Origin: Gammaproteobacteria bacterium
Lineage (GTDB): Bacteria; Pseudomonadota; Gammaproteobacteria; Steroidobacterales; Steroidobacteraceae
NCBI GenBank assembly: GCA_025355645.1
Contig: JANXZG010000076.1
Coordinates: 1 to 64,000, forward strand
Length of the DNA stretch: 64,000 nucleotides
Direction of reading: 5' to 3'
The notes under the pieces were generated by a model. That model ran no database searches, was not told the DNA's origin, and worked only from the letters and a program-made list of their open reading frames with translations. Shown here piece after piece: positions 39,257-64,000 of the stretch. Positions within the stretch are counted from its first letter, which is position 1. Every line of letters begins with the position of its first letter. Both the position numbers and the translations under genes were made by a program.

Positions 39257-39275
39257 TAAACAAGTATAACGGACG

Positions 39276-41222: not shown

Positions 41223-41266
41223 AAATCTCCCAGGTGTTTGCCAATGGCCGAAAATGGCATGCGACC

Positions 41267-41838: not shown

Positions 41839-41842
<4 letters not shown>
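41267..41842 (-). CDS. kdpC: KdpC, potassium-transporting ATPase subunit C
   Basis: A 191-residue single-span subunit of the KdpFABC pump. N-terminal membrane anchor [28 protein letters not shown] is followed by the conserved [33 protein letters not shown], then [12 protein letters not shown] and, at the C-terminus, [23 protein letters not shown]. Length and motifs are typical. The start overlaps the kdpB stop (ATGA). Confidence 0.97.
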
Positions 41843-43902
<2,060 letters not shown>

Positions 43903-43907
43903 GGGAA

Positions 43908-47751: not shown

Positions 47752-48905
47752 AGCTGATAGATCATCGCATCGAACTTATAAAGCGGCTCGTCGCCGGCTG
47801 TATAGGCAGGCGGTCCATAGTCCTTGATGTCGCGAAAATCACCGTACTTGATCTGAACGCGGCTGATGTCGAGCGTGGCGGTGCCGCGCTTGAAGAACTT
47901 CCAACCCTCAGGCAGGAACGCGTAGGTCGCCTTCGCGCCCACGGTCACGTTTTTCTGCGCTGCGAGTTCCTTGTCGCGCGCCATGAAATTCTGCGCATTT
48001 GCCTGCGAGAACAGGTCGCTGTAAAAATTCGCATGTCCCTGCTCGTACAGACGCACGCGTCCTTCGAGGATCCAGATGTTGCGGATCGGGTGCGTGTAAT
48101 CGAATTCGGCTGTCCCCGAGGTGATGCCCCAGGTATCGCGGAAATACCGGTATGACACCGTCGCCGCTGCACGATAGGGCAGATAGTATTTGGCGCGCGC
48201 CTCGACCGCAGTGCTGGTGCGCGTAAGCGGATATATCTGCGTGCCCAGTGAGTAGAATTTCGGTGGGTCAACCGCATCCCGGAAACGGATGAAACGATAC
48301 GGATTCGCAAGATAGCCGGCATCCGTGATCACATCCAGGGTCACGCCGCCTATCAGGTTCCGAGTGATGATCTGCGAGAGGCCGAGGCTGTAGCTGTGCG
48401 TCTGCGAGTTGCCGACCCAAGCGACGTTAGGCACCAGCGCCGTGCCATTGTTCTCGCCGATTTTGTTACGCGTGCTGCCAAACCCCAGCGTAACGGTGGT
48501 CAGGTCGCCGAACATGTCCTGGCTAATCTGGAAGTGCGGCGTATTCGAGATGTAGTCACGCTCGGTGCTCTGCGTGAACCCGAGCGCATAGGTCGTCTTG
48601 TTACGGATGTACTCGACGTTGACGGTCTTCTGGTGGCGCTCGTCCTTTATTACGCTTGCGTTGCTCAGCACGTCGACCGAGGCGCCGCTGACCTTGTCGA
48701 TGAAGTAATCGGCCTCGATGCCAAGATTTTCCGTGATTCTCTTCTGCACCAGCGCCGACTCACCGGTGATGGTCATGCCGCCGCCGCTGTACCGGCTGAA
48801 GAACAGGTCGGCCCGATCATCGGGCAATACGCCGGCCCAAGCGCCATGGGCGGTTGCCAGCAGGGCGATGCCCGCCAGTGCGCGCATGAACCGGATCAAT
48901 TGCAT
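47730..48905 (-). CDS. DUF3570 outer-membrane beta-barrel protein
   Basis: A 391-residue protein with signal peptide (MQLIRFMRALAGIALLATAHGAWA). DUF3570 features include DLFFSRYSGGGMTITGESALVQKRI near the N-terminus, IEADYFIDKVSGASVDVLS, and YRFIRFRDAVDPP. The rest alternates aromatic and polar residues as a barrel should and ends in MSMFF, a C-terminal phenylalanine suitable for BAM recognition. Last gene of the minus-strand arm, overlapping the DUF4266 gene by ten bases. DUF3570, DUF4266 and a TlpA thioredoxin recur together in other bacteria, often with an FMN transferase (ApbE), which is not seen here. Function unknown. Confidence 0.9.
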   Translation of the reverse strand: MQLIRFMRALAGIALLATAHGAWAGVLPDDRADLFFSRYSGGGMTITGESALVQKRITENLGIEADYFIDKVSGASVDVLSNASVIKDERHQKTVNVEYIRNKTTYALGFTQSTERDYISNTPHFQISQDMFGDLTTVTLGFGSTRNKIGENNGTALVPNVAWVGNSQTHSYSLGLSQIITRNLIGGVTLDVITDAGYLANPYRFIRFRDAVDPPKFYSLGTQIYPLTRTSTAVEARAKYYLPYRAAATVSYRYFRDTWGITSGTAEFDYTHPIRNIWILEGRVRLYEQGHANFYSDLFSQANAQNFMARDKELAAQKNVTVGAKATYAFLPEGWKFFKRGTATLDISRVQIKYGDFRDIKDYGPPAYTAGDEPLYKFDAMIYQLYMSMFF

Positions 48906-49123
48906 CCGCAGCCGCCGCCCGCCGCCCCGGTGCCGCCACGGGAACCCTCGCGCGATTCGTAAATGTGATCGAGCAGGGCCGAGGAGATCGCATCGCGATC
49001 CCAGGCCATGATTGGATCGGCAAGCCGGTCGCGCTCATAGGGCTTGACCCAGGGCTGGATGCTGCTGCAGCCGCCGAGGAGAAGCAGCGCGACGAGTAAT
49101 GCCGGATTGCGAACGCCGCGCAT
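48896..49123 (-). CDS. DUF4266 small lipoprotein with cysteine-rich tail
   Basis: A 75-residue lipoprotein with lipobox LLLLGGC, so it is anchored by a lipid on Cys18. The conserved core WVKPYERDRLADPIMAW and a short helix lead to a glycine-rich C-terminus ending GGGCGCN. Two extra cysteines at the very end are typical of DUF4266 and could bind metal, receive a modification, or be kept reduced by the thioredoxin encoded three bases upstream. Function is unknown; the redox link is inferred from gene order. Confidence 0.88.
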   Translation of the reverse strand: MRGVRNPALLVALLLLGGCSSIQPWVKPYERDRLADPIMAWDRDAISSALLDHIYESREGSRGGTGAAGGGCGCN

Positions 49124-49126
49124 GGC

Positions 49127-49633
49127 TTACTCCCGGATCAGCTGGCGAATGCGGTCCTGGTACTCGTTCTCGTCGCCGGGCTTGTAGCCACGGTGCAGGA
49201 AGCGCACGTTGCCCTTGCGGTCGATCAGCACCGTGCTCGGCATTTCATCGACGTGGTAGGCCTTGCTGACCTGGCTCGCCGGGTCGAGCAGCACGGGGAA
49301 GCTGACCGGCTTGCGCTCAAGCAGCTGCTTGACTGGCGGTGCATCCTTGTCGACATTGACGCCGATCAGCGTGAAGCCCGCCGGCTTGTATTTGCGGTAC
49401 ATCTGCTCGAGCAGCGGCATCTCCTGCTGGCAGGGCCCGCACCAGGTCGCCCAGAAATTAAGCATCACGACCTGGCCCTTGTACTGGCTCAGGCTCGCGC
49501 TCTGTCCATCCAGCTCACTGAGCGTGAATGGCGGTGCCGGGCCAGTGGCATCGGCGCCGATTGCGGCGACGGTTGCGAGCAGCGCGAGCGCGACAAAACT
49601 GCGCCGTATTGAATTGGGTTTTACCTTGAACAT
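49127..49633 (-). CDS. TlpA-like periplasmic thioredoxin (active CGPC)
   Basis: A 168-residue thiol-disulfide oxidoreductase. A signal peptide (RRSFVALALLATVAAIGADA) is followed by the thioredoxin fold, with catalytic C65 and C68 in FWATWCGPCQQEMPLLEQ and a cis-proline in DEMPSTVLIDRKG. The central insert typical of TlpA/ResA reducing proteins is present (GVNVDKDAPPVKQLLERK). GGAGG supports the start. It lies directly upstream of DUF4266 and downstream of the small barrel, so it probably reduces cysteines of exported partners, for example cytochrome CxxCH motifs or the DUF4266 tail. Confidence 0.93.
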   Translation of the reverse strand: MFKVKPNSIRRSFVALALLATVAAIGADATGPAPPFTLSELDGQSASLSQYKGQVVMLNFWATWCGPCQQEMPLLEQMYRKYKPAGFTLIGVNVDKDAPPVKQLLERKPVSFPVLLDPASQVSKAYHVDEMPSTVLIDRKGNVRFLHRGYKPGDENEYQDRIRQLIRE

Positions 49634-49650: not shown

Positions 49651-50319
49651 TCAGTAGAAGACAGTCAGCCCCAGGGTCGCCTCGACGTTGTGCGTGTTTT
49701 TTTCCGTGCCGAAAAGCGCGGATTCATAAATGTGATCGCGCACGTCCAGGTGCAGGGCCAGCCAGTGAGTAATCAGCACACGCTCCCCCACGCCAAAATT
49801 AAGGGCAAAGTGATTGGTCTCGGCAAATTTCACGGCGCCCATGCCCACTACTGCATATAGCGCGGTATTAAAGGCGCGACCCTTGCCGAGGTACACCTCA
49901 CCAGGAAGGATGTTGTAGCCGACATCGAGGTCGTAGTATGTGAACTGGCGCCCGGACCCGCCAAGGACCGTGATCTGCGGAAAAACTTCTTCGAGGCTGC
50001 TGGTCCCTGCCTTGGAGCGCGCCACGGCACCCTCGAGGAAAATGCTTTCGGTCACGTGGTAGGTACCCGTCGCCCCGTAGATCGGGTTCGTGCCGAAGTC
50101 CTCGATCGACAGTGCGCCGTAGTAGACGCCGAGCTCGAAGTCCTTAGCCCTGATCTTCGGTGTCTTGACGACGCGCCGGTCGACCTGCGGCTGCACGATC
50201 GGCGGCTCATCCTGCGCCGATTCCACCACGGGAGGAGGGCCCTTGTCGGGGCGATGGAACCAGCCGCAGCCGGACAGCAGCGCCGCTGCTAAAAGAACAC
50301 TGCCAAGCCGAGTTTCCAT
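49651..50319 (-). CDS. Lipoprotein-anchored outer-membrane beta-barrel (OMP_myx_plus-like)
   Basis: A 222-residue protein with lipobox AALLSGC and a proline-rich linker (KGPPPVVESAQDEPPIVQPQV) before a small eight-strand-like barrel: FELGVYYGALSIEDFGTNPIYG, FTYYDLDVGYNILPGEVYLG, FALNFGVGERVLITHWLALHLDVRDH and a C-terminus ATLGLTVFY. The last segments resemble the outer-membrane barrel domain first seen in myxobacterial envelope proteins. An N-terminal lipid anchor plus linker on a barrel is uncommon and suggests a peptidoglycan- or partner-reaching segment. The start overlaps the end of the SH3-barrel gene by 31 bases. Confidence 0.82.
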   Translation of the reverse strand: METRLGSVLLAAALLSGCGWFHRPDKGPPPVVESAQDEPPIVQPQVDRRVVKTPKIRAKDFELGVYYGALSIEDFGTNPIYGATGTYHVTESIFLEGAVARSKAGTSSLEEVFPQITVLGGSGRQFTYYDLDVGYNILPGEVYLGKGRAFNTALYAVVGMGAVKFAETNHFALNFGVGERVLITHWLALHLDVRDHIYESALFGTEKNTHNVEATLGLTVFY

Positions 50320-51023
50320 TCTTCCAGTTCCTCATTCTTGTTCAGGTTGTTAAAAACCACATAGGATCGCCAATCGAAGCGCCACATGAATCGCTCGCTG
50401 AGGAAGCCGCGGGCGCCGAGCGAGGCATAGACCATTTCATTGCCCTTTTCCAGCGGCGCCGGGGGCACGACTGTCACCACGTGCTGGTAACCCGTGCCGA
50501 TGCCGGCGGTCGGCGAGAACCACTTCCACTCCGGCACGAAGGTATGGCGCAGCCCGATCGTGCCAATGGTGCGATTGTCCAGAGTGCCGTACGACTCCTG
50601 CAGCGCCACCTCAATGTCGAGACTGTCGGTTAGGCCGAAATCGGCATAGGAGGTCACCAGGTTCGAGCGGTTGTAGACGCCGTAGCCGGCGCCGAACTCC
50701 CAGCGATGCGTGGCAAATTCCGGGTAGGGCGGAATGGGTGCTGGCTCGCCCGAGACCATCGTCGTGCGTGCCAGATCGGCACGGCGCACCCAGCCTTCCT
50801 CACCGCGCGGCGCGCGTACCCGGTACCAGTCGGTGCGGCTGTACAGCACGGTCACACTCTCGCCGCGCGCTACTACATAGAACACCGGGTAGCCGCGCCC
50901 CGGCCCCGTATGCATCTCCAGGTAGGGGTCGGTGACGATGAGTTCGAGAGCCGGATCCTTGGCGTGTGCGAGGCCCGATAAACAGGCTTGCAGAACCATG
51001 ATTAGCGTTAACAGCCGTACCAT
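50289..51023 (-). CDS. SH3b domain fused to an outer-membrane beta-barrel
   Basis: About 244 residues. The ATG at 51023 (MVRLLTLIMVLQACLSGLAHA signal peptide) is chosen; the longer form would overlap the upstream gene. Residues about 25-85 are a bacterial SH3 domain (YLEMHTGPGRGYPVFYVVARGE, WYRVRAPRGEEGWVRRADL), which usually binds cell-wall peptide. The rest is a small barrel (WEFGAGYGVYNRSNLVTSYADFG, YASLGARGFLSERFMWRFDWRSYVVF, LGLAVFF) closely related in pattern to the following gene's barrel. An SH3-barrel fusion could tie the outer membrane to peptidoglycan. It starts four bases after the HzsA-like gene. Confidence 0.82.
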   Translation of the reverse strand: MVRLLTLIMVLQACLSGLAHAKDPALELIVTDPYLEMHTGPGRGYPVFYVVARGESVTVLYSRTDWYRVRAPRGEEGWVRRADLARTTMVSGEPAPIPPYPEFATHRWEFGAGYGVYNRSNLVTSYADFGLTDSLDIEVALQESYGTLDNRTIGTIGLRHTFVPEWKWFSPTAGIGTGYQHVVTVVPPAPLEKGNEMVYASLGARGFLSERFMWRFDWRSYVVFNNLNKNEELEEWKLGLAVFF

Positions 51024-51027
51024 CCGG

Positions 51028-53808
51028 TCAGTTCGCGGCCGGGGCAACGAACGGATCGTTATAAAACTGACCGCCGATATCCAGCCATTCAGAAATCAAT
51101 CGCAACTCCGCCGGCGTCATGTAGCCAAAATGCGTTCCGCTTGCCGCAAACTCGCCAAAGAACCTTGCCGATCCCGTGGCGCTACCCGCCATCATAGTCC
51201 CCGCGACCGGCACCGTGACCATGGTCGTTGTCGGCAGGCCCGTAATCGGATCCGGCGGGCCCGGAGGGCCGGGCACGATTAGATCCTGCAACACGCCCAT
51301 ATTAAGCGTCTGTTCGTTGTGAGGGAACAGCAATTCTTTGTAGGAGGTCACGACGGTTTGGTCGAGCACCGATGCGCTGCCAGTCAGGTCCAGCTGGCCC
51401 AGCGGCACCTGGATCACGCTCGGCGCATTCGCGCTCGCCGCCCCAATGGGATTGTGGCAGAGCACGCAGGTACGATCGGCCAGTACGGTCACGCCATCAG
51501 CCGCCAAGGTCTGTCGCGACAGGTTCCACACGTTCTGCAGGAACTCGGGTGTCGCCGCAGCGGCGTTTGCGTAGTGAATCGTCACGCGGCACTGGGCCGA
51601 CCAAGGTAGGCAGTTGCCGTTGAGCGGCGGCGGTTCCGATAACCCCACCGCGCCACTACCGGTGCTATCAGTGCCATAGGGATAAGAGATGATCGGGTCG
51701 GTGGATCCTGCCGGGAGGGTCACGCCGGTCGTCCAGATGGGCGTGTAGCTCACATCCGTGCTCAGCACCTGTGAGCAGGTGGCGGCGCTCTGGGATTTGG
51801 CGGTCGCGCCGCAGGTCGATGCGGCGAGCGCACTTGCCATCGTATCGCCCGCAGCACTCGCCAGCACGGCCGGATTCGAGTTCGGAAACGCAGCGCCGGC
51901 GGCCGCAGCCCCGGCATATATTGCTGCGCTAAGGCCCGAGCGGCCGTGCGAGGGATGCGCGCTGGTCGGTGTGCCCGCGTGGCAGCCATTGCACGTCTTG
52001 GTCTCACCCGGCATCACCTGCAGCCAGCTCTCGTGGCGTGCCGTGTTGCGCCGCGCATCGGCGCCCACAATGTCGATCGTGAACGGTACGTTGGCGGGTA
52101 CCTGGACCTGGACCGAGCCGTCCGGCTGGATCGGCGCATAGCCCAGGATCTCGCGCATGCCCATGCCCGCCGGGCCGAATGCGGAACCGTTTATCTTGCG
52201 CACCTTCTTGTCCGGTATCTCGACCGCCTTGACGATGCGAATGAACCGGTAGGGCCTTGCGTAGTAACTGGCCTGCGAAGGATCGGCGGTCGCGGCGATG
52301 CTCGGATTGGCGGTATCGAGCCCGTCGACATCGTAGATGCTGGTGATATTCAGCAAACCCACTTCCGCACCGGCGAGGTTCTGTTCGCTAGGGGTCGTCG
52401 GCATAAAATCCGGGATGAACGTCGGCGCCGGCGTCCGCGGCTGCATGATTACCGCGTCCAGGGTCATTAACTCAGTCTGCGCCGCGAGCACAGGATCGAG
52501 CGTGCTCTTGGCAAAATCATAGACCCACAGGGTGTACTGCGGAGGCGCGAGCATGACATTGGGGCCGCTGGTGTTGGCCGAGGTGCACACATTCGTTGCG
52601 GGCGGCGTCATCGTTGTATCCAGCACGAAGCACGGCGACCAGCTGACGACCATGCGGTTGGTGCCGTCATACAGCGGGTAAACGGACGCGAAGCGCCCGC
52701 CCAGCGAGGCAAGCTTTGGGTCCGTCGTGATGCCAAGCAAGGTCGCGCTCGCCTGGGCCGGGGCGCTCGCACCGGCGTCGGCGAGCACCGGCTGGTGGAT
52801 CTCGACATAGTTGTCGGCATCGATCAGCAGCGCATCGCCGCCTAATTGCGTGCCGGTGAAGGGCCGGTCAATGCTCAACACCCGGCCGTCCGGTCGTTGT
52901 CGGGCGTTCAGAAACTGGATGACCGTGTTGTTCGTGCCGGCACTGTTGGCGCCGGTCGCATGGCTCATCGCGCCGTAGTAAAGCTCGAGCCCCGTGCCAT
53001 CCGGGTTTACGCGATACAGGCTTATTTCGTCCTGCCCGTTGATCACTTCCCAGCGCGAGAACAGGACCTGGCCATTGTTCAGCACCGACGGGGAGAAGTC
53101 GTGGTTCGAGTTGAAGCTGATCTGGTGAATGCCGGTACCGTCCGCATTCATCACATGCAACAGGAAAATCGGCGACTGGCGATTATCGGTCTGCGCCGGA
53201 TATTGCGGCCGACCCTCATCGAGCAGGATCGCCTGCGTCGCCGTCTGCCGGGTCGAGGCGAATACGATGCGGCCATCCGGCAGGTAATGAGGGCTGACGT
53301 CATGCCCAGCGGTGATGTCATCATTGGTTAGCTGCGTCACCGCTTTTGCGATCGCGTCATATTGGTAGATGTGCCAGTTCGGCTGCTTGGGATCGTCATT
53401 GGCGCGATTCGGGTCTAGCGGCAGGCGCAGCGCGAACGCGACCTTGGTTCCGTCCATCGAGACATCGAGGTCGCGCACGTCACCCATGCCCGTGGTGATG
53501 CCGGCGGTGACATTGACCTCGACTCCGGCGGCGCTCGCTTCGCTGCGCACGTAGAGGTCGCCGCCCGTGGTCGAGGTGATCAGGTCACGCACGTCAATAT
53601 CCTTCATGGGATACGGACGCTTCACATAAGCCATCGGGAAATTTGTAGTGACGGCGATCAAGGTCTCGCCGCCTGCCACACCTGGCGCATGTCCACTTGC
53701 GGCACTGCTGCAACCGGTCTCTATCAGTAGCGGCAACAAAACAGGAATGAGAACTACCGCACACGTAGCGACTGCATGGCGCACCGATCGAGAAAAAAAT
53801 ATGTTCAT
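51028..53808 (-). CDS. HzsA-like lipoprotein: TolB-type beta-propeller plus c-type heme motifs
   Basis: A protein of about 926 residues. The ATG at 53808 is preferred since it gives a lipoprotein signal (VLIPVLLPLLIETGC). Propeller blades of the PD40/TolB kind are visible, such as DVSPHYLPDGRIVFASTRQ and DFSPSVLNNGQVLFSRWEVI. Two heme-binding motifs occur in the C-terminal half: CNGCH near residue 606 and CVLCH near 781. This order (propeller, middle domain, cytochrome) resembles proteins related to the hydrazine synthase alpha subunit. No other anammox gene is present, so hydrazine chemistry is not implied. It starts the minus-strand arm and faces a divergent cytochrome gene. Confidence 0.8.
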   Translation of the reverse strand: MNIFFSRSVRHAVATCAVVLIPVLLPLLIETGCSSAASGHAPGVAGGETLIAVTTNFPMAYVKRPYPMKDIDVRDLITSTTGGDLYVRSEASAAGVEVNVTAGITTGMGDVRDLDVSMDGTKVAFALRLPLDPNRANDDPKQPNWHIYQYDAIAKAVTQLTNDDITAGHDVSPHYLPDGRIVFASTRQTATQAILLDEGRPQYPAQTDNRQSPIFLLHVMNADGTGIHQISFNSNHDFSPSVLNNGQVLFSRWEVINGQDEISLYRVNPDGTGLELYYGAMSHATGANSAGTNNTVIQFLNARQRPDGRVLSIDRPFTGTQLGGDALLIDADNYVEIHQPVLADAGASAPAQASATLLGITTDPKLASLGGRFASVYPLYDGTNRMVVSWSPCFVLDTTMTPPATNVCTSANTSGPNVMLAPPQYTLWVYDFAKSTLDPVLAAQTELMTLDAVIMQPRTPAPTFIPDFMPTTPSEQNLAGAEVGLLNITSIYDVDGLDTANPSIAATADPSQASYYARPYRFIRIVKAVEIPDKKVRKINGSAFGPAGMGMREILGYAPIQPDGSVQVQVPANVPFTIDIVGADARRNTARHESWLQVMPGETKTCNGCHAGTPTSAHPSHGRSGLSAAIYAGAAAAGAAFPNSNPAVLASAAGDTMASALAASTCGATAKSQSAATCSQVLSTDVSYTPIWTTGVTLPAGSTDPIISYPYGTDSTGSGAVGLSEPPPLNGNCLPWSAQCRVTIHYANAAAATPEFLQNVWNLSRQTLAADGVTVLADRTCVLCHNPIGAASANAPSVIQVPLGQLDLTGSASVLDQTVVTSYKELLFPHNEQTLNMGVLQDLIVPGPPGPPDPITGLPTTTMVTVPVAGTMMAGSATGSARFFGEFAASGTHFGYMTPAELRLISEWLDIGGQFYNDPFVAPAAN

Positions 53809-54063
53809 AGCGGGCATTCCGATCGCGCCGATGACCTGTTCAACCATCATCTCGCGATATTTGCATACAATCTGTTAAGCGACTCACGGTACTGGCGCGG
53901 CATTTGCGATGAACTGCCGATCGTGGCAAAGCATATAGGCGCAGTAATTTGCGCCGTAATTGTCGCGAAAACACGACGTCAGGCCCTTGAGACAGTTCTG
54001 CAAGCTTGCACTGCCCCGTATATTGCGGTCGTCGAAATTCACATCAGTCGAGTGGACGGACAG
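53809..54063. promoter_or_regulatory. Divergent control region with inverted repeat
   Basis: A 255-base spacer between the two exported-protein operons. It holds an inverted repeat, GGCGCA-GTAATT-TGCGCC, at 53938-53955, a plausible operator for a dimeric regulator. No regulator gene is adjacent. The ORF track extends the plus-strand ORF through this spacer, but the sequence there is not protein-like and precedes a good signal peptide start. Confidence 0.4.
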
Positions 54064-55257
54064 ATGAAGCAGAAATCGCCAACACGTCGGAGCATCGCGG
54101 TGACTACGAGGTCTGCACTGCTGGGTACGCTGGCCGCAAGCACACTGTGCCTGTGGCATGGCGGTGCCGGCGCGGCAGGCATCTCGAACGATCAGGCGCT
54201 GCGTATCTACAACCGCGTGGCAGGCATTCCTGCACCGGCGGCGAAGCTTACGCAAATGACCGCCGCAAGTGACCCGGTTGCGGCGGCGTTGATCGCCACG
54301 AATGATCCGTCTTTTTACAACAACACGGTGCGCAACCTGGCGGCGCCGTGGACCAATCGTGCGCAGACGGTGTTCGTCCCCCTGAATGATTACACCGCGA
54401 CCGTCGTCGGCATGGTGCGCGATGACGTGCCATTCAATCAGCTGCTGAGCGCTGACCTCGTCTACGTCGCCAACTCGAGCCTAGGGCTGCCCGGCTACTC
54501 GCTCGGCAACAACGACATGTACCAGGCCATGGACGACAACAACGTCGATCTGAGCCAGGGCCTGGTATCGGCCAAGCAGTCCGCGGTCTCGGGGCTGCCG
54601 GGCGCAGCGATCGCCGGGGTCCTGTCGACCCGCGGTGCCACCAGCGCATTCTTTATCAACGGCACCAACCGCGCGATGTTCCGCTTTACGATGATGAATC
54701 ACCTGTGCAGCGACCTGCAGACCATTATGGATACGACGCGCCCGCCAGACCGCATACGCCAGGATGTCACGCGCAGCCCGGGCGGTGACAGTAGCCTGTT
54801 CCTGAACAACTGTGTCGGCTGCCACAGCGGCATGGACCCGATGGCGCAGGCCTTCGCGTACTACAACTTCGACGAGACCACGATGGTGACGTCCTACACT
54901 CCGGGAAAGGTGCAACCGAAGTACTCGATCAACAATACCAACTTTCCGCAGGGCTTCGTTACGCCGGATGACAGCTGGTCGAATCGCTGGCGCAGCGGCC
55001 CGAATGCGGTCCTCGGCTGGAGCCCGGCGTTGCAGGGCAGCGGTAACGGGGCGAATTCACTGGGCGTGGAACTTGCCAGCAGCGCCGCATTCACGAGCTG
55101 CCAGGTGACCCGGGTCTTCAAGTACGTCTGCCTGCGGGCGCCGAGCACCCCGGCGGACAACTCGCAGGTCACGGCGATGATCGCCTCGTTCCAGGCGCAC
55201 AACTACTCGCTGCGCCAGGTGTTCGCCGAGTCGGCTGCCTTTTGCATGGGGAACTGA
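54064..55257 (+). CDS. Exported c-type cytochrome-like protein, distantly DUF1592/1588/1585-like
   Basis: A 397-residue exported protein. Start at ATG 54064 gives a signal peptide (MKQKSPTRRSIAVTTRSALLGTLAASTL...GAGAA). One heme motif, CVGCH near residue 250, is set in LFLNNCVGCHSGMDPMAQAFAYYNFDE. This recalls the CxxCHxxxDPxGFALENFD block of planctomycete/myxobacterial DUF1588 cytochromes. VPFNQLLSADLVYVANSSLG and the C-terminal YSLRQVFAESAAF resemble the DUF1592 and DUF1585 blocks. Those resemblances are by eye and distant. Two bases separate it from the diheme LamG lipoprotein gene. Confidence 0.7.
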   Translation: MKQKSPTRRSIAVTTRSALLGTLAASTLCLWHGGAGAAGISNDQALRIYNRVAGIPAPAAKLTQMTAASDPVAAALIATNDPSFYNNTVRNLAAPWTNRAQTVFVPLNDYTATVVGMVRDDVPFNQLLSADLVYVANSSLGLPGYSLGNNDMYQAMDDNNVDLSQGLVSAKQSAVSGLPGAAIAGVLSTRGATSAFFINGTNRAMFRFTMMNHLCSDLQTIMDTTRPPDRIRQDVTRSPGGDSSLFLNNCVGCHSGMDPMAQAFAYYNFDETTMVTSYTPGKVQPKYSINNTNFPQGFVTPDDSWSNRWRSGPNAVLGWSPALQGSGNGANSLGVELASSAAFTSCQVTRVFKYVCLRAPSTPADNSQVTAMIASFQAHNYSLRQVFAESAAFCMGN

Positions 55258-55259
55258 GC

Positions 55260-57722
55260 ATGACGGCTATCATTCGTGCGGGATTTACTGCTGCCATCGC
55301 GAGCCTTGCGCTTAGCGCCTGTGGCGGCGGCGGCGCGCCAACTACCGACACACCGACCTCGGCGCCAAGCAGTGGCGCCAGCTCCTACACCGGGCCTGCG
55401 CCCGCGACATCGGACGTGCAGGCGTTCGAGGTCAACTTCTGGAACAATGTTCGCAGCCAGAATCGCTGCGGCCAGTGCCATAACGCCACGACGCCCTCAC
55501 AACTGCCCAACTTCGCGCGCAGCGACAACGTGAACCTCGCTTATGCGCAGGCCAATACGGTCGTGAATCTCGGCCAGCCGGCCACTTCGATCATCGTCAG
55601 CAAGGTCTCGGGCGGCCATAACTGCTGGCTCGCGGACCCGAACGCCTGCGGCCAGATCCTGACCACCTGGATCAGCAATTGGGCGAATGCTACCTCCGCG
55701 GGTGGCAAGGGCACGGTCATACAGCTGGTCGCGCCGCCGATCCAGACTGTCGGGCAAAGCCTGAACTTCCCGGCATCGCCGAACGATTTCGGTGCGACCG
55801 TTTATCCTTTGCTGACGCAATATTGCTCGCGCTGCCACTCACCGACCGCAGCGGTGCCACAGTCCCCGTACTTCGCCTCACCGGTACTGGCGCAGGCTTA
55901 CCAGGCGGCGTTGCCGAAGATGGACCTGAACACGCCGACCAACTCGCGTTTTTATGAGCGCCTGGCCAACGAGAGCCATAATTGCTGGAGCAACTGCGCG
56001 AGCAACGCGGCCACCATGCTCGCCGCGATCCAGTCCTTTGCCGGCATGCTCACGCCCTCGAGCATCAACGGCTCGCTTGTGGTCAGCAAGGCGCTCTCCC
56101 TGCCGCAAGGCACGGTGGCGAGCGGCTCGAGTCGATTCGACGCCAACGTCATCGCCAAGTACGAATTTGAAACCGGCAACGGCTATACCGCCTACGACAC
56201 CAGTGGCGTCGACCCGGCGGCGGACCTGACCATCACGGGCAACGTGACCTGGGCCGGCGGCTGGGGCATCAACGTGGGTGCAGGCGGCAAGGCAAAGGCC
56301 AATACTGCCGCGAGTTCCAAGCTCTACGACATGATCCAGGCGACCGGCGAGTTCACGATCGAAGCCTGGGTCGCACCGGCTCTGGTGGCGGTCGACAACT
56401 CCTATATGGTTAGTTACTCGGGCGGCGATGCTACGCGTAACTTCACGCTCGGCCAGACCAACCAGGACTACGACTTCATGCTACGCAGCTCGAATTCCGT
56501 GGGCCTGAATGGCATGCCGCAGGCGCAGACGCCGGATGCCGCGATGCTGCTGCAGGCGAGCTTGCAACATGTCGTCATGACCTATGACCCGGTCAACGGT
56601 CGCCAGGTCTATCTCGACGGGGTCAATACCGGCGTGGTCGATGCGCAGGCTGGCGGGGTGATTTCCAACTGGGACAGCACGTTCGCGCTGGTGCTCGGCA
56701 ACGAAGTCTCCGGCGATCGATCCTGGCAAGGCCTGATCAAGTTCGTCGCGATCCACAACCGCGCACTGACCGCCGCACAGGCACTGCAGAACTACAATGC
56801 CGGCGTTGGCCAGCGTTACTTCATGCTGTTCGACGTGTCCGCCGTAACCGGATTGTCGCAGGCCTACGTGATGTTCACGGCTAGCCAGTTTGACAGCTCG
56901 AGCTACATGTTCTCCCAGCCTACCTTCATATCGCTCGATCCGACCGTCACGCCCGACAACATCAAGGTGCAGGGCATACGCATCGGCATCAACGGCACAA
57001 TACCCGCCGTGGGCCAGGCGTATATCCCGCTGAACACCACTGTCAGTGCGAGCAACTACACCCCACAGGGCGAGGTATTGTCCAACATCGGTACCGTCAT
57101 CGCCCTGCAGAATGGGCCGCTGACGGACCAGTTCTTCCTGACCTTCGATGTGCTGGGCGGATCGCAGGACATCGTCGTCGAACCCCCGCCGGCCGCGCCG
57201 CCGCCGCCACCGACGCTCGCTGCTGTATCGGATATCGGCATGCGCACCTTTGCGCAGGTCAACGCCACGATGTCGATGCTGACGGGCGTCCCGCTTTCCA
57301 ATCCCGCGGTCAGTGCGACCTACTTGTCGGTACAGGAGCAGCTGCCGACCACGGCGGTGCTGGAGAGCTTCCTCGCCGCGAACCAGGTGGGAATCGCACA
57401 GCTGGCGGTCCAGTACTGCAACACGCTCGTGAACACGCCGTCGCTGGCGGCCCAGGTGTTCCCGGGCGTGACCTTCGGTCCCTCGCTGTTCGCTTCGCAG
57501 AACGGCATCAATTCGGTCACCGGCAACCTTGCCATCATGGTGCTCGGCAATGGCCAGTTCGCGAGCCAGCCGGCAGCCTCGACCGTGACGACCGAACTCG
57601 GCGCTCTGATCGGGATCCTGTGCAGCGGCAGTTCACCATGCACCAACACGCCGCGAGTGCTGGCGGTCACGGCCGCAGCCTGTGCCGCGGTATTGGGTAG
57701 TGCGGATATGGAGATTGATTAA
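55260..57722 (+). CDS. Diheme LamG-domain lipoprotein
   Basis: An 820-residue lipoprotein (ATG at 55260; lipobox LALSAC, then a GGGG and Ser/Thr/Pro-rich linker). Two c-type heme sites lie in the N-terminal third: CGQCH near residue 70 and CSRCH near residue 189. Residues about 300-480 form a LamG/concanavalin-like lectin domain (IAKYEFETGNGYTAYDTSG, FTIEAWVAP, HVVMTYDPVNGRQVYLDGVNTG, WQGLIKFVAIHNRALTAAQAL). A further beta-rich region, a PPPAAPPPPPP hinge and an unassigned helical C-terminal domain follow. Heme plus LamG is reminiscent of planctomycete PSCyt-LamG proteins. Its TAA overlaps the next ATG by one base. Confidence 0.85.
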   Translation: MTAIIRAGFTAAIASLALSACGGGGAPTTDTPTSAPSSGASSYTGPAPATSDVQAFEVNFWNNVRSQNRCGQCHNATTPSQLPNFARSDNVNLAYAQANTVVNLGQPATSIIVSKVSGGHNCWLADPNACGQILTTWISNWANATSAGGKGTVIQLVAPPIQTVGQSLNFPASPNDFGATVYPLLTQYCSRCHSPTAAVPQSPYFASPVLAQAYQAALPKMDLNTPTNSRFYERLANESHNCWSNCASNAATMLAAIQSFAGMLTPSSINGSLVVSKALSLPQGTVASGSSRFDANVIAKYEFETGNGYTAYDTSGVDPAADLTITGNVTWAGGWGINVGAGGKAKANTAASSKLYDMIQATGEFTIEAWVAPALVAVDNSYMVSYSGGDATRNFTLGQTNQDYDFMLRSSNSVGLNGMPQAQTPDAAMLLQASLQHVVMTYDPVNGRQVYLDGVNTGVVDAQAGGVISNWDSTFALVLGNEVSGDRSWQGLIKFVAIHNRALTAAQALQNYNAGVGQRYFMLFDVSAVTGLSQAYVMFTASQFDSSSYMFSQPTFISLDPTVTPDNIKVQGIRIGINGTIPAVGQAYIPLNTTVSASNYTPQGEVLSNIGTVIALQNGPLTDQFFLTFDVLGGSQDIVVEPPPAAPPPPPTLAAVSDIGMRTFAQVNATMSMLTGVPLSNPAVSATYLSVQEQLPTTAVLESFLAANQVGIAQLAVQYCNTLVNTPSLAAQVFPGVTFGPSLFASQNGINSVTGNLAIMVLGNGQFASQPAASTVTTELGALIGILCSGSSPCTNTPRVLAVTAAACAAVLGSADMEID

Positions 57723-59335
57723 TGAGTAAGCATCCTAAGGATCCGGCCGCGAGCCCGCAACCGTATCGCCATCCTGACCACCCGCGCCCGCAAACACGGC
57801 GTGAATTTCTTGCGCAGGGATTCATTACAGGCTCCGCCACGGTGCTGGCGCCGGCGATGTTTGGCCTGTTCGCCTCGCCGCGCGATGCGCGCGCGCAGCT
57901 GGCATCCGACATCCAGACGGCCGTCACGGCCTGCGGCATCACGACCGGCGCAGGGCTCGTGCCCTTCATCTGCTTCGATCTCTCGGGGGGCGCCAATATC
58001 GCCGGCTCCAACGTGCTGGTGGGCGGGCCCAAGGGGCAGCTCGATTTTTTGACCGTCGCGGCCTACAACAAGCTCGGGCTGCCGGGCACGATGATCCCCA
58101 GCGCAAGCGCCAGCGGCACGCACGTCGATCCGACCTTTGGTCTGCGCTATCACTCCGACAGCGCGCACCTGCGCGGCATGAAGGCACGCACCGGCGCGCT
58201 GGCCATGGCCAACACCAACGGCACGGTCATACCGGCGCTCTCGCAGAACGATTCCAACGTCAATCCGCACAACCCGATGTATGGCATCTGGCAGGCCGGT
58301 GCGCGCGGCGCGCTGCTCGATCTGATCGGCACGGATAGCTCGGTCTCAGGTGGCAATTCGTTGGCGCCGATGACCATGGTCAATGCCCAGGCGCAACCGA
58401 CCAAAGTATCCGGCTCGGCCGATGTCATTGGCCTGGTTAATACCGGTCAATTGAGCACATTGCTGCCAAACCCCTCGGACGTCACCAACGTCATGGAATC
58501 GATGAAGCGCATCAGCGATGCCAAGTACGGCAAAGTCATCGCCTACGCCGATCCGACCGCCGATGCCGCTGCGAAGCAGATTCCGACCTGCAGCTACACG
58601 AAATCCGCGTACCTCATCAACAAGTACAGCAGCCCCTCCTCGATCAATCCGGACCTTGATACGGATGTGGTCGGCCCGAGTGGTATCTTCAATGCGACCG
58701 AATACCAGTCAACCCGGGAATATCAGGCGACTGCCGCGGTCATGAAGACCGTGATTGATGGCGATGCGGCCGCGGGCACTGTCGAGCTCGGCGGATTTGA
58801 CTATCATACCGGCGATCGTTCCACGGGCGAGGGCCGTGATTTCATCGCCGGCAACTGCATCGGCGCCTGTCTCGAGTACGCGGCCCGCAAGGGCAAACCG
58901 GTGATGATTTATGTATTCAGCGATGGCTCGCTCGCGAGCAGCGGCATGATCGACAATTCTCCCGGCGGCCGCGGCAAGGGCGTGTGGACGGCCGACAATT
59001 CCGACGTGGCTGCCACCTACTTCCTCGTCTTCAATCCCGCCGGCAAGCCTGTTCCGGCGCAGTCGAATGCCGAGATGAGCTTGCAGCTGGGCTATTTCGA
59101 TCCGGATGGATCGGTCAACATCAACGGCAGCCCCGCCGCCAACAATGTCTTCAACCTTGTGCAGACGGTGGTGCTGAACTACATGGCGATCCATAGCGCC
59201 AATGCGTCGGCCAATTTTCCGACGCTTTACCCGGCGCCCAACCTCAACAACACGCTCGGCAGCGGCTCCGCACTCGACGCCCTGATTTCGTTCCAGCCAC
59301 TTGCCGGGTTGGTCAACGGCAGAATCGTCGGTTAG
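57722..59335 (+). CDS. Tat-exported DUF1501-like protein
   Basis: A 537-residue protein with a twin-arginine signal (RPQTRREFLAQGFITGSATVL... to DARAQ) after an unusual 25-residue polar leader. The body suggests an alkaline-phosphatase/sulfatase-like fold of the DUF1501 kind: FICFDLSGGANIAGSNVLVGG, LRYHSDSAHLRGM, NPHNPMYGIWQAGARG, FDYHTGDRSTGEGRDFIAGN, MIYVFSDGSLASSG. Several aspartate/histidine clusters could bind metal. Folded export fits a cofactor or complex formed before transport. Coupled to the LamG cytochrome by a TAATG overlap, so the two products probably act together. Activity unknown. Confidence 0.75.
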   Translation: MSKHPKDPAASPQPYRHPDHPRPQTRREFLAQGFITGSATVLAPAMFGLFASPRDARAQLASDIQTAVTACGITTGAGLVPFICFDLSGGANIAGSNVLVGGPKGQLDFLTVAAYNKLGLPGTMIPSASASGTHVDPTFGLRYHSDSAHLRGMKARTGALAMANTNGTVIPALSQNDSNVNPHNPMYGIWQAGARGALLDLIGTDSSVSGGNSLAPMTMVNAQAQPTKVSGSADVIGLVNTGQLSTLLPNPSDVTNVMESMKRISDAKYGKVIAYADPTADAAAKQIPTCSYTKSAYLINKYSSPSSINPDLDTDVVGPSGIFNATEYQSTREYQATAAVMKTVIDGDAAAGTVELGGFDYHTGDRSTGEGRDFIAGNCIGACLEYAARKGKPVMIYVFSDGSLASSGMIDNSPGGRGKGVWTADNSDVAATYFLVFNPAGKPVPAQSNAEMSLQLGYFDPDGSVNINGSPAANNVFNLVQTVVLNYMAIHSANASANFPTLYPAPNLNNTLGSGSALDALISFQPLAGLVNGRIVG

Positions 59336-59418
59336 CGCGCGCGGCGCGTTGACACTGCCAGCCGCAGTGTGCGATTTTGCATAATCTGGGCGAGACCGGG
59401 GTGACCGGAGTGATAGAT

Positions 59419-59946
59419 GTGAATCCGCGCTGGCGCATCGGCGCGTCTTGGACCGGCTGCCTGAGCTTTGCGCTGGCGGTCGCCTCGATCTCCTGCGCAC
59501 TGGCGGCGCCGCCAACCGGCATGCTGGGCCGCGAAGCCCCCGATTTCACGCTGAAAAGCACTCGCGGTGAGAACCTGCGCCTGTCCGAATTCCGCGGCCA
59601 GGTCGTGCTGGTTAATTTCTGGGCCCGCTGGGCTGGGGATTCCCGGCGCGAGATCCCGGCGCTTGAGCGCATCCACAGCACCTACGCACGCGCCGGGCTG
59701 ATTGTGCTCGGTGTCTCCATTGAGGCAGACGCGCGGCGGGCTGGCGAGTTTGCGACATCCATGCACATCCCGTATCCCGTGTTGATCGATACTGACCCCG
59801 CACTCGGTCAGGAATATGTCATTCAGAAAATGCCAATGACTCTTCTTATAGACCGGGCCGGGATTGTTCGCTTTGTCCACGTCGGTTTCGAGAATGCCGA
59901 CGAGGCCGTGTATCTCGAGCAGATACGCGCTTTGCTGCGTGAATAA
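59419..59946 (+). CDS. TlpA-like thioredoxin-fold protein lacking both catalytic cysteines
   Basis: About 175 residues. The ORF track begins at a TTG, but GTG 59419 has GGAG nine bases upstream and gives a signal peptide (MNPRWRIGASWTGCLSFALAVASISCALAA). The fold is plainly TlpA/AhpC-like (LGREAPDFTLKSTRGENLRLSEFRGQVVLVNFW), with cis-proline in IQKMPMTLLIDRAG. The expected WCGPC is WAGDS (Ala72, Ser75), so it cannot do thiol-disulfide exchange through that site. The reading frame is otherwise intact, arguing for a retained structural or binding role. An active TlpA is encoded in the divergent arm. Confidence 0.88.
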   Translation: MNPRWRIGASWTGCLSFALAVASISCALAAPPTGMLGREAPDFTLKSTRGENLRLSEFRGQVVLVNFWARWAGDSRREIPALERIHSTYARAGLIVLGVSIEADARRAGEFATSMHIPYPVLIDTDPALGQEYVIQKMPMTLLIDRAGIVRFVHVGFENADEAVYLEQIRALLRE

Positions 59947-59960
59947 ACGATAGGTTAGTT

Positions 59961-60545
59961 ATGAAGCTGCACAATCGAATTATTGCCAGGGTTTTATGCG
60001 CAGGGCTGCTTGCTTGCCTGTCGACTAGCGCACAGGCGCAGGCCACAGCGCCGGCACCGGCGTCCGCTGCACCGGTGGTGGCGCCGGCTGCGGATGATAC
60101 GCGCACGCTGGATCAGGAAGTACAGGGCCTGAAGAAGGATGTCATCGACCTGAACAGGGATTTGTTCGTGCTGGAGGAGGAACTGCTCTTCCCAGCCAAT
60201 ACCCAGGTCGCCGTGTTCCTGTCGATGGATGTGGGCACATTCTTCACGCTCGATGCGGTCACCATCAAGATCGACAATAAAGAAGTGACCAACTATCTAT
60301 ATACCGCCAAAGAAGCAGACGCCTTGCTCAAGGGTGGCGTGCAGCGTGTCTATATCGGCAACCAGAAAGTAGGCAAGCACGAGCTGGTGGCCTTCTTCAA
60401 TGGCAAGGGGCCGGGCGAACTCGATTACCGGCGTGGCTCGACGCTGACTTTTGAAAAGGGTGTCGGCGCCAAGTACCTTGAGCTGAAAATCTCGGACCGC
60501 GTCAGTAAGCATCAACCTGAGTTCATCGTCAAAGACTGGGAATGA
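59961..60545 (+). CDS. Periplasmic coiled-coil protein of unknown family
   Basis: A 194-residue protein with a signal peptide (MKLHNRIIARVLCAGLLACLSTSAQAQA) and an Ala/Pro-rich linker. A coiled coil follows (TLDQEVQGLKKDVIDLNRDLFVLEEELL, residues about 48-75). The C-terminal beta-rich domain is about 115 residues (VAVFLSMDVGTFFTLDAVTIKID, GVQRVYIGNQKVGKHELVAFFNGKGP). I do not recognise the family. It sits 14 bases after the degenerate TlpA gene and three bases before the TPR gene, suggesting a periplasmic subunit of the same assembly, perhaps oligomerising through the coiled coil. Confidence 0.75.
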   Translation: MKLHNRIIARVLCAGLLACLSTSAQAQATAPAPASAAPVVAPAADDTRTLDQEVQGLKKDVIDLNRDLFVLEEELLFPANTQVAVFLSMDVGTFFTLDAVTIKIDNKEVTNYLYTAKEADALLKGGVQRVYIGNQKVGKHELVAFFNGKGPGELDYRRGSTLTFEKGVGAKYLELKISDRVSKHQPEFIVKDWE

Positions 60546-60548
60546 GGC

Positions 60549-62447
60549 GTGCGAGCACTGACTGACACAGTCCGCGCATTCTGCGTTATGGGCGGGCTGG
60601 CCTTGGCCAGTGCGCCTTCGACTGCGGCGAACCTGAAACAGGACCCGAACTCACTGACCTCGCGTCCGGTCGAAGATTTGCACTACGGCGACGTGCTGTT
60701 CTATTACTTCCAGAACGACTACTTCGCCGCGATCACGCGCCTGCTCGCCGCGCAGCAACTGCAGCGGCTGCACCACTCGGAGGGCGAGGCGGAACTGCTG
60801 CTCGGCGGCCTTTACCTGTCGCTGGGGGAACACAACGAGGCGGGACGCATATTCGACGCGCTGCTGGCAAGCAATGCGCCGCTGGCTGTGCGCAACCGTG
60901 CCTGGTACTACCTCGGCAAGCTGTGGTACCAGCGTGGTTACCTGGACGAGTCCGAGCGGGCGTTGCGCAGGCTCTCCGGCGACGTTGATCCGCGCATCGA
61001 TGCGCAGCGCTACATGCTGCTCTCGCAAGTCATGTTGCGTCAGGGACGGTATGACGATGCAATCATCGCGCTGCGCGCCTGGCACGGCGCGCCAGATTGG
61101 ACCGCTTATGCGCAGTTCAACTTAGGAGTCGCGCTGGTGCGCACCGGCCGGCTCGATGACGCGATACCTTTCCTGGATTCGGTCGGACGCCTGACGAGCC
61201 GCAGCGAGGAGCTGCTCGCGCTGAAGGACAAAGCCAACCTCGCCCTGGGGTTCGCCTTGCTGCAAGGCCAGCGCGGCAAGCAGGCAAAACCCATTCTGCA
61301 ACGCGTCCGGCTCGAGGGGCCCTCCTCGGACAAGGCCTTGCTCGGCGTCGGCTGGGCCGATGCGATGTCCGGCGAATACCAGCGCGCGTTGGTGCCGTGG
61401 CTTGAGCTGCGCAAGCGCAATCTGCTTGACGCGGCGGTGCAGGAGGCGTACCTGGCGGTCCCCTACGCCTTTGGCAAGCTCAAGGCCGACGGCCAGGCCG
61501 CCGAGTACTACACCTCGGCGATCGACTCGTTCGATATGGAGATGCAACGCATCGATGCCTCAGTCGCCGAAATCCGGGCCGGCCGGCTGCTTGATCGGCT
61601 GCTCGATGCCGATGCGCAAAAGAAGGTCAGCTGGGACTGGCAGCTGCAGAACCTGCCGAATGCGCCGGAGTCGCGCTACCTGTACGTGCTGCTCGCCTCG
61701 AACGAGTTCCAGGAAGGGCTGAAGAACTATCGTGAGCTCAATTATATGAGCCGCAACCTGCGGGACTGGCGTGACAGCCTGGTCGCCTTTGACCAGATCC
61801 TCGATACCAAGGACAAGGCGTACGCTCTGCGGCTGCCGAAGACCGATGCAATCATAGCGGGCACTGACCTTGGCGCGCTGAGTCGAAAGCGCGTGGAATT
61901 CGAGTCGCGCCTGAACGAGATCGAGAAGAGCCATGACGTCGCCGCCTTGGGCACGCCCGCGGAGCAGGCCACGTGGGCACACCTGCAAAGGGTCGAGAAT
62001 TATTTGGCGGCGCATCCGGAGGCTGCGATGACGCCAGAGATGCGCGAGAAATTCCGCTTGATGAAGGGCGTGATGCTGTGGCGCCTGTCGGAGAGCTTCA
62101 AGGCACGATTGTGGAATGAGCGCAAAGCCGTGCGCGAGCTGGCCGGATCATTGCAGGAAACCCAGGCGCGCGCCGCCGCGGTTCGGCAGGCACGGCAAAA
62201 CGTTCCGGTCGACACCGGCAGCAACGCGCAGCGGGTCACCTCGGTGCGCGAGCGCATGGATCTGCTGCAGGAGCGGCTCTCCGCCGTGGCCGTGCGCCAG
62301 AACCGTTATCTGCAGCAGCTCGCGGTGGATGAGCTGGAAGCACAAAAGCAGCGCATTGCGACCTATCAGGTGCAGGCGCGCTATGCGCTTGCCTCGATCT
62401 ACGATCGCGCCGTCGACCAGCAGAACAAGCCGAAGGCGACACCATGA
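60549..62447 (+). CDS. Exported TPR-repeat protein with C-terminal coiled coil
   Basis: A 632-residue protein starting at GTG 60549, with a signal peptide (ALTDTVRAFCVMGGLALASAPSTA). Helical tetratricopeptide repeats cover much of residues 40-300 (GEAELLLGGLYLSLGEHNEAGRIFDALL, RNRAWYYLGKLWYQRGYLDESERALRRL, YAQFNLGVALVRTGRLDDAIPFL). The last 150 residues are strongly coiled-coil (ERMDLLQERLSAVAVRQNRYLQQL). It is likely a periplasmic scaffold. Its end overlaps the next TPR gene by four bases (ATGA). No catalytic motif is visible. Confidence 0.85.
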   Translation: MRALTDTVRAFCVMGGLALASAPSTAANLKQDPNSLTSRPVEDLHYGDVLFYYFQNDYFAAITRLLAAQQLQRLHHSEGEAELLLGGLYLSLGEHNEAGRIFDALLASNAPLAVRNRAWYYLGKLWYQRGYLDESERALRRLSGDVDPRIDAQRYMLLSQVMLRQGRYDDAIIALRAWHGAPDWTAYAQFNLGVALVRTGRLDDAIPFLDSVGRLTSRSEELLALKDKANLALGFALLQGQRGKQAKPILQRVRLEGPSSDKALLGVGWADAMSGEYQRALVPWLELRKRNLLDAAVQEAYLAVPYAFGKLKADGQAAEYYTSAIDSFDMEMQRIDASVAEIRAGRLLDRLLDADAQKKVSWDWQLQNLPNAPESRYLYVLLASNEFQEGLKNYRELNYMSRNLRDWRDSLVAFDQILDTKDKAYALRLPKTDAIIAGTDLGALSRKRVEFESRLNEIEKSHDVAALGTPAEQATWAHLQRVENYLAAHPEAAMTPEMREKFRLMKGVMLWRLSESFKARLWNERKAVRELAGSLQETQARAAAVRQARQNVPVDTGSNAQRVTSVRERMDLLQERLSAVAVRQNRYLQQLAVDELEAQKQRIATYQVQARYALASIYDRAVDQQNKPKATP

Positions 62448-64000
62448 ACTCCAGCGGCCCAAGCCCGCAGGTCGTGCTGCTCGCCGCGATGCTGGCATCC
62501 TCGCTCGCCAATGCATCGCAGCAGCCGGCGACGATCAAGGACCTCGATAGCCACCAGGTCGAGGTCAAGCCGGATCCGCCGCAAGGAGTTGACACGGCCA
62601 AAACGATGGAGAGCTATCGGCGTTTTCTCGACCTGAATGCGGGCGATGCAAGCTTGCGGGCCGAGGCGCTGCGCCGCCTCGGGGATCTGCATCTGGAGAG
62701 CGCTGAATCGGCGCGCATCGAAGCGGAACTCGCCAACAACGAGGCACTGCACGCCAATGAGGCGATCACGCTGTACACGGCGCTCCTAAAGGCCTATCCG
62801 AATTTCGAACGCAACGACTCGGTGCTCTACCAACTCGCGCGCGCCTATGAGACGAGCCTGCAGCCGGTGCCGGCGCTTGCGACACTCGACCGCCTGGTAC
62901 AGGCCTATCCGGCGAGCCGCCTGGTTGATGAGGCGCAGTTTCGGCGAGGCGAACTGCTGTTTTCCGCAAAACAGTACCCGGCCGCGCAGCTCGCCTACGA
63001 AGCCGTGATCCACGCAGGCACGAACTCGCAGTTTTTTGTCCAGAGCGAGTACAAGCATGGCTGGGCGCTGTTCAAGCAAGGTGAGAACGAGCAGAGCCTG
63101 GCATCGTTTGGCGCGGTGCTCGATGCGCTGCTGGTCTCGAAGCGCGATGCGAATGCGCTGATCGAGGTCGAATCGCTGTCCCGCCCCAACCAGGAACTCG
63201 TCGAGGACACGCTGCGCGTGATGTCGATTACGTTCTCCTATGCCGACGGTCCGAAGACGCTGGATGCATTCCTCGCCAGCGGCAGGCCGCGCCCGTATGC
63301 CTATGTGCTATACGCGCGTCTAGGCGATCTGTACGCGGAAAAGGAACGATACACGGACGCTGCGGACAGCTATCGCGCGTTCGCGGCCCGCAACCGCAAT
63401 CATGAAAAAGCGCCGCACCTGCAGATGCAGGCGATCGAGGCCTATTCGCGCGGCGGCTTCCCACAGCTGGTGCTGCAGGGCAAGCAGGAATTCGTGGAAG
63501 ACTACTCGTTCGGCACGACTTACTGGCAAGGACGCGACCCCGATCACGAGACCAAGGTGGTTGCCGAGCTTAAGGCGAACCTGCATGATCTTGCGCAGCA
63601 CTTCCACGCCGAAGCCCAGCGCAGCAAGTCGGTTGCCGATTACCAGGAGGCGGCCAAGTATTACCGCAGCTACCTGACTTCCTTCCCCAAGGATCCGGAT
63701 GCTCCGGTCACCAATTACCTGCTGGCCGACACGCTGTTCGAGAGCCGCCAATACCTCGATGCCGCCAAGGAATACGAGCAGACGGCCTACGATTATGGCG
63801 GGCAGGGCAGGGCGGCAGATGCCGGTTATGCCGCGATCGTGGCCTACGGCAAGTATGAGGAGACGGCGAGCGCCGACGCGCGGGCCGAGGTGCACCGGCA
63901 AAGCGTCGACAGCTCGCTGAAATTTGCCACCTCCTTCCAGCAGCATCCGGAGAGCTCAACGGTGTTAATGCACGCGGCCAAGGATTTGTATTCCGCCGGG
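62444..64000 (+). CDS. TPR-repeat protein, 3' end beyond window
   Basis: Absent from the ORF track because it runs off the window, but open for 519 codons from ATG 62444. It begins with a signal-like segment (PSPQVVLLAAMLASSLANASQQ). Many TPR-like units follow, including YRRFLDLNAGDASLRAEALR, ITLYTALLKAYPNFERNDSV, YQLARAYETSLQPVPALATL and VTNYLLADTLFESRQYLDAA. Long exported TPR proteins of this style occur in myxobacterial gliding and related proton-driven envelope machineries, but that comparison is from pattern only. Coupled to the previous TPR gene by an ATGA overlap; further genes of the operon probably lie downstream. Confidence 0.85.
   Translation, partial: MNSSGPSPQVVLLAAMLASSLANASQQPATIKDLDSHQVEVKPDPPQGVDTAKTMESYRRFLDLNAGDASLRAEALRRLGDLHLESAESARIEAELANNEALHANEAITLYTALLKAYPNFERNDSVLYQLARAYETSLQPVPALATLDRLVQAYPASRLVDEAQFRRGELLFSAKQYPAAQLAYEAVIHAGTNSQFFVQSEYKHGWALFKQGENEQSLASFGAVLDALLVSKRDANALIEVESLSRPNQELVEDTLRVMSITFSYADGPKTLDAFLASGRPRPYAYVLYARLGDLYAEKERYTDAADSYRAFAARNRNHEKAPHLQMQAIEAYSRGGFPQLVLQGKQEFVEDYSFGTTYWQGRDPDHETKVVAELKANLHDLAQHFHAEAQRSKSVADYQEAAKYYRSYLTSFPKDPDAPVTNYLLADTLFESRQYLDAAKEYEQTAYDYGGQGRAADAGYAAIVAYGKYEETASADARAEVHRQSVDSSLKFATSFQQHPESSTVLMHAAKDLYSAG

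Follow-up and report, generated by a model that had tools for sequence, protein, structure and literature searches.

The three genes denoted here A, B, and C, which occupy positions 54064-59335 of the window (the entire 64,000-nucleotide stretch of Steroidobacteraceae DNA that was analyzed), raise the question of what function could bring together a monoheme cytochrome, a heme-containing LamG lipoprotein, and a Tat-exported protein in a gammaproteobacterium. The original prediction was that the trio may represent a divergent branch of a PSCyt-type system. For A, this view is supported by profile evidence, but B and C fail the profile tests for the respective families, and a different context emerges from the gene neighborhoods and the patterns of co-inheritance.

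Organization of the A-B-C locus

In the window sequence, A, B, and C are three open reading frames, all on the plus strand and each with the parts originally ascribed to it. The stop codon of A is separated from the ATG of B by a gap of 2 nt and the stop of B overlaps the start of C as TAATG; because of this spacing, we conclude that the three genes form one coupled operon. A promoter scan found none between A and the divergently oriented neighbor that encodes a protein related to the alpha subunit of hydrazine synthase (hereafter, HZS-alpha-like), and an Rfam search over 44-64 kb of the window yielded no match. The A-B-C order on the same strand is conserved in all 92 loci with enough flanking sequence, some of which come from the same genomes. 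This conservation, together with the co-occurrence described below, rules out a chance neighborhood of the three genes. Moreover, the conserved unit is considerably larger than the trio: it extends from about 47.7 kb past the end of the window, and the interval 54064-59335 leaves out most of it. The original prediction overlooked this main context, namely a flavinylation gene set on one side and an Agl/Glt-type motor core on the other.

Domain affinities of the A, B, and C proteins

Gene A (54064-55257, +) encodes an exported monoheme cytochrome that is assigned, from profiles and sequence, to a divergent DUF1592/1588/1585 type. The CVGCH heme motif (54811-54825, +) is followed by SGMDPMAQAFAYYNF, the conserved block to which attention had originally been drawn, and a single CxxCH is present in 106 of 106 homologs, compared to two in the canonical proteins, whose N-terminal heme domain is absent from A. 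The window protein scores 21.0 bits against DUF1585 (Pfam gathering cut-off 25.8); across the family, DUF1585 is matched by 30 of 37 members and DUF1588 by 28 of 37, mostly below the cut-off, and in a whole-genome search the A genes of about ten genomes pass the Pfam cut-off for DUF1585, with a best score of 31.2 bits. Profile-profile comparison with a reference set drawn from this order (11 DUF1592/1588/1585 proteins) produced a colinear alignment of 278 columns (95.4%, pair E 1.7e-8), versus at most 4% for unrelated control families; a second reference set gave 61%, again over 278 columns. A fold search of the PDB with the model of A found no relative among the solved structures. Given the family matches and the colinear alignment, the anticipated kinship with DUF1585/1588/1592 is supported, and we regard A as a divergent representative of this superfamily that has become shortened.

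Gene B (55260-57722, +, with an alternative TTG start at 55242) encodes, as judged by profiles and sequence, a lipoprotein with a lipobox, two CxxCH motifs, CGQCH (about 55467-55481, +) and CSRCH (about 55824-55838, +), and a Laminin_G_3 domain (about 56334-56780, +; E 1.6e-19). Both heme motifs are present in 108 of 109 homologs. When the heme regions of B were compared with PSCyt proteins by profile comparison, they aligned at CxxCH only (21 columns, 12%). The identification of B as a cytochrome of the PSCyt1/DUF1549-LamG type is thus unsupported, given that, outside LamG, the CxxCH motif alone aligns, and B can be described only as a LamG lipoprotein with two hemes. The predicted heme and LamG parts are thus present, but the suggested kinship with PSCyt proteins does not extend beyond the CxxCH motif and a LamG domain that is generic.

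Gene C (57722-59335, +), as judged from its structural model and motifs, encodes a Tat-exported protein with an alkaline-phosphatase-superfamily fold and a DUF1501-like order of motifs. The twin-arginine start (TRREFL) includes Arg26-Arg27, which are identical in 36 of 36 members, as are D86, D360, H362, D401, and D425. In PDB searches with the AlphaFold model (pLDDT 81), the top 50 matches all belong, by description, to the alkaline phosphatase superfamily; the best E-value is a modest 2e-3, and the top matches include TAB5 alkaline phosphatase, sulfatases, iPGM, and LtaP. PorX, which is among the matches, is presumably also a member of this superfamily. We take the metal-ligand positions of alkaline phosphatases to be occupied by D86 (which follows the first strand), by D360/H362, and by D401; one histidine usual in this metal site appears to be missing from C. 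The motif order of C, GG..N / SHND-like / GGxDxH / SDxG / DN, parallels that of DUF1501 (GG..N, SHND-like, GGxDxH, SDxG, D[HN]), with which C also shares the twin-arginine start, and the fold class of DUF1501 is likewise of the alkaline phosphatase type. At the level of profiles, however, C has no Pfam or NCBIfam match: PF07394 (DUF1501) is matched by 0 of 36 members at E-values up to 10, and the profile-profile comparison yields 4.4%. Thus, the Tat start, the predicted fold, and the motif order of a DUF1501-like protein are all found in C, but profile similarity to that family is not, so that C resembles an alkaline-phosphatase-fold protein and membership in DUF1501 is not backed by the sequence tests. 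DUF1552 was rejected as the identity of C as well (profile-profile 2.9%, no HXXSHH). A plasmid search for C found none.

A search of the host genome for DUF1501 detected a match at another locus only, and not C; this true DUF1501 gene (L073:8717-11498, -) lies on a different contig and is paired with DUF1800.

Among the closest known systems is the planctomycete-type pair formed by DUF1592-DUF1588-DUF1585 (PSCyt3) and DUF1552 (HXXSHH) proteins. A is colinear with PSCyt3, sharing a CxxCH that precedes (M)DP and a C-terminus resembling DUF1585, and in both cases an exported partner of the RR type is encoded nearby. In contrast, A is only about 400 aa long versus about 800, lacks the N-terminal heme domain, and is mostly single-copy; C is not a DUF1552 protein by profile, and B has no counterpart. 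Within these genomes, proteins of the DUF1585 type have as their canonical partner DUF1552 rather than DUF1501: canonical DUF1592/1588/1585 genes in this order adjoin DUF1552 genes, and a single genome can hold as many as about 16 such pairs. Five genomes (G020, G034, G045, G064, and G083; e.g., loci L293-L304) carry about 5-16 such pairs each, an expansion that is otherwise known from planctomycetes and is found here in a gammaproteobacterial order.

Redox proteins and predicted barrels upstream of the trio

Divergently from A, a lipoprotein gene (51028-53850, -) encodes the HZS-alpha-like protein, which contains PD40 propeller repeats, an HZS_alpha middle domain (E 1.1e-14), and two CxxCH motifs. 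These elements are shared with hydrazine synthase alpha, but the match is partial, with 30.7 of the 800 bits set for the NCBIfam equivalog, and no other hydrazine synthase subunits were identified in the cluster. Across A, B, and the HZS-alpha-like protein, five heme-attachment motifs are conserved.

Further along the minus strand, the neighborhood encodes a protein combining an SH3 domain with a predicted outer-membrane barrel (50289-51047, -), an outer-membrane beta-barrel of the TIGR04565 family (OMP_myx_plus; 49651-50319, -; 145 bits, cut-off 60), and a TlpA-like thioredoxin with a CxxC motif (49127-49633, -), recognized from its sequence and because it is homologous to the TlpA encoded in the block downstream. 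A small lipoprotein of 75 aa that ends in CxC (GGGCGCN) and belongs to DUF4266 (48896-49123, -; E 8.5e-24), and a predicted barrel of the DUF3570 family (47730-48905, -; E 1e-38) complete this part of the unit; the DUF4266 gene, lying between those for TlpA and DUF3570, is easily overlooked. A second TlpA/ResA-like redoxin (59377-59946, +) is encoded directly downstream of C.

DUF3570 is an experimentally proven substrate of ApbE and occurs in ApbE-DUF3570-thioredoxin-DUF4266 clusters (PMC8238504). In the window DUF3570 protein, an SGAS motif (about 48678-48689, -) corresponds to the published [S/T]GA[S/T] flavinylation site, which is present in 17 of the 38 DUF3570 ORFs examined, and DUF4266 accompanies DUF3570 in all 65 loci showing the latter. 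The window contains no ApbE gene; the host genome has two, both on other contigs. Among relatives, 28 loci contain an ApbE gene adjoining or close to C or the terminus of the core block. In most of these it immediately follows C, as in Microbulbifer and Marinobacter, and a few have it where the core block ends. Hence DUF3570, DUF4266, and thioredoxin are shared with the described flavinylation clusters (Meheust et al., 2021; PMC8238504), and ApbE is found beside C in many relatives, whereas the main text of that study mentions no TPR, ExbB, hydrazine, or DUF1501, and the link to PSCyt-like, HZS-alpha-like, and Agl/Glt components is not reported there.

Two second copies of A-B-C (L052:4706-9738 and L062:4687-9800) lack the HZS-alpha-like gene and have lost the first heme motif of B. 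Both adjoin multiheme cytochromes, with 9+5 and 21 CxxCH motifs, respectively, and this proximity is a further, separate argument that the trio has a redox role.

The Agl/Glt-type motor core

Downstream of the second redoxin, the window enters a conserved block with the order D-TPR-TPR-Agl/Glt. The first gene, D (59961-60545, +), encodes an exported protein and is followed by a TPR protein gene in a GltE/GltC-like position (60549-62447, +) and by the start of a gene for a 1065-aa TPR protein in a GltD-like position (62444-64000, +), both assigned by position and TPR content. Past the window end, the contig continues with a 165-aa gene and with AglR-, AglQ-, AglS-, and GltG-like genes. In this core, the MotA_ExbB domain is matched with an E-value of 1.5e-22 and two ExbD domains with 2.1e-14 and 1.6e-15, and the GltG-like protein passes the NF033768 (AgmX/PglI) threshold with 61.4 bits (cut-off 40). 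In Gammaproteobacteria, a core of AglRQS with GltD, E, G, and C has been described as a complex whose function is unknown; in Myxococcus, its relatives power gliding and the assembly of the spore coat (Luciano et al., 2011; PMC3169522). As in that core, MotA/ExbB, two ExbD, a TonB-like GltG/AgmX, and TPR proteins are clustered here; however, cytochromes are unmentioned in the main text of the earlier study (PMC3169522), whereas in the present case the core is associated with A-B-C, the HZS-alpha-like protein, and DUF3570. Neither D nor another exported, core-conserved protein (L072:5639-6136) matches a Pfam family, and one of the two could correspond to the additional core gene mentioned by Luciano et al. 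as absent from Myxococcales.

Co-inheritance of the trio and the core

The divergent HZS-alpha-like gene stands beside A-B-C in 89 of 92 loci, or in 90 when L141 is included, and the two true exceptions are the second copies. The full set recurs in Steroidobacteraceae, Microbulbifer, and Sedimenticola, and the part comprising A-B-C, HZS-alpha, and DUF3570 in Marinobacter, Alteromonas, and Gilvimarinus. The position of the core relative to A-B-C varies (downstream, upstream, or unlinked), yet the core is retained.

Among 246 genomes of the order, 133 encode both C and the GltD-like TPR protein, 2 only C, 30 only the TPR protein, and 81 neither (Fisher p about 1e-36, a value that ignores shared descent and comes from a set with many fragmentary genomes). 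The two genomes with C only are a 70%-complete bin (G188) and a 660-contig bin (G238). Phylum-wide, across 399 genomes, the core TPR protein is present in 8 of the 8 genomes with C versus 7 of the 391 others (15 of 399 overall; p about 4e-13, again ignoring shared descent). Of the 163 genomes with the core, 30 lack A-B-C, so that the trio is accessory. In five close relatives, the core and the barrels are kept but HZS-alpha and A-B-C are absent, and in nine other genomes HZS-alpha is present without A-B-C; presence is thus nested, with the core first, then HZS-alpha, and then A-B-C. In some of the core-bearing relatives without A-B-C (L286-L288, L242-L247), an ApbE gene immediately adjoins the HZS-alpha-like gene; others have lost HZS-alpha, and in these latter DUF4266 is mostly undetected.

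Functional models

With respect to the function of the trio, we tentatively propose as the likeliest reading, with confidence that falls somewhat short of even, that A-B-C constitute the outermost, electron-transferring and hydrolase-like head of a flavin/thiol/heme relay that is mounted on a proton-driven envelope complex of the Agl/Glt type. The proposal draws on heme sites, export signals, gene linkage, and nested co-inheritance, which are evident in the sequences, and on the predicted fold of C. Electrons would pass between the periplasmic thiols of TlpA and DUF4266, the flavinylated outer-membrane DUF3570, and the hemes of the HZS-alpha-like protein, A, and B, with these hemes placed at the outer membrane or cell surface, a localization assumed from the lipoboxes and barrels. 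There, C, perhaps held in place through the LamG domain of B, might bind or act on a substrate at the surface or outside the cell, and the AglRQS-GltG-TPR part could energize the assembly, movement, or export of the complex. Several points weigh against this proposal: the trio is accessory to the core, the co-occurrence figures ignore shared descent and include many fragmentary genomes, the flavinylation site is seen in only 17 of 38 DUF3570 ORFs, both ApbE genes of the host lie on other contigs, and the fold match of C is modest. We also consider a bolder version, which we regard as rather doubtful, namely a single gammaproteobacterial envelope machine in which the Agl/Glt-type, proton-driven motor core is joined, both physically and in function, to a flavin-heme electron relay that is located in the outer membrane and ends in A-B-C. 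If correct, this would be a redox-coupled motor or transporter of a kind undescribed so far, and it would for the first time assign a function to the Agl/Glt core of Gammaproteobacteria and to a PSCyt-like protein set.

The main rivals of the relay-on-motor proposal are a polymer machine and a plain electron conduit. Under the former, which we consider unlikely although it is a genuine contender, the core would move or export a polysaccharide that A-B-C modify oxidatively and hydrolytically, with LamG providing binding, the alkaline-phosphatase-fold protein acting as the hydrolase, and the cytochromes serving as the electron sink, comparable to Nfs and the spore-coat polymer of Myxococcus. The Laminin_G_3 domain of B and the alkaline phosphatase/sulfatase-type fold of C are consistent with such roles, but a search of the conserved block revealed no glycosyltransferase, polymerase, or glycoside hydrolase, a catalytic nucleophile could not be recognized in C, and the apparent lack of one usual metal-site histidine in C also counts against this reading. 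Precedents in favor come from Verrucomicrobia, in which PSCyt genes adjoin sulfatases and carry CBMs (PMC5615132), and from the Glt family itself, which includes the Nfs sporulation system (PMC3169522).

Alternatively, the trio might be part of a plain extracellular electron-transfer conduit, with the motor core a mere neighbor that shares its outer-membrane barrels. The three heme proteins, the DUF3570/DUF4266/TlpA set, and the location of the second A-B-C copies beside multiheme cytochromes would all fit a conduit; nevertheless, only five hemes are available, an MtrABC-like porin-cytochrome was not seen in the conserved block, and the near-strict co-occurrence with the core, even where the two are unlinked, makes this alternative distinctly improbable in our assessment. 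Least probable is that the trio works alone, as a branch of the planctomycete PSCyt/DUF1501 module in Gammaproteobacteria, with a historical link to the core: the relationship of A to DUF1592/1588/1585 and the layout reminiscent of PSCyt genes paired with DUF1501 or DUF1552 speak for it, but B and C fail the profile tests for those families and the trio is mostly single-copy and core-dependent, as opposed to the roughly 5-16 PSCyt/DUF1552 pairs per genome in several relatives.

PSCyt/DUF1585-type proteins, the gammaproteobacterial Agl/Glt core, and the DUF3570/DUF4266 clusters, all with open functions, are united here in one conserved gene set. Each of the parts is known or related to known ones, and no paper joining them was found in the open-licence literature. 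The set is present in culturable Marinobacter, Microbulbifer, Alteromonas, Paraglaciecola, and Gilvimarinus, so that a shared role can be tested in one organism.

Elsewhere in the window, N-terminal sequences suggest that the region 35868-45644 holds a KdpABC-DE cluster for potassium transport; its middle ORF (41839-44130) shows an odd overlap with the neighboring one.
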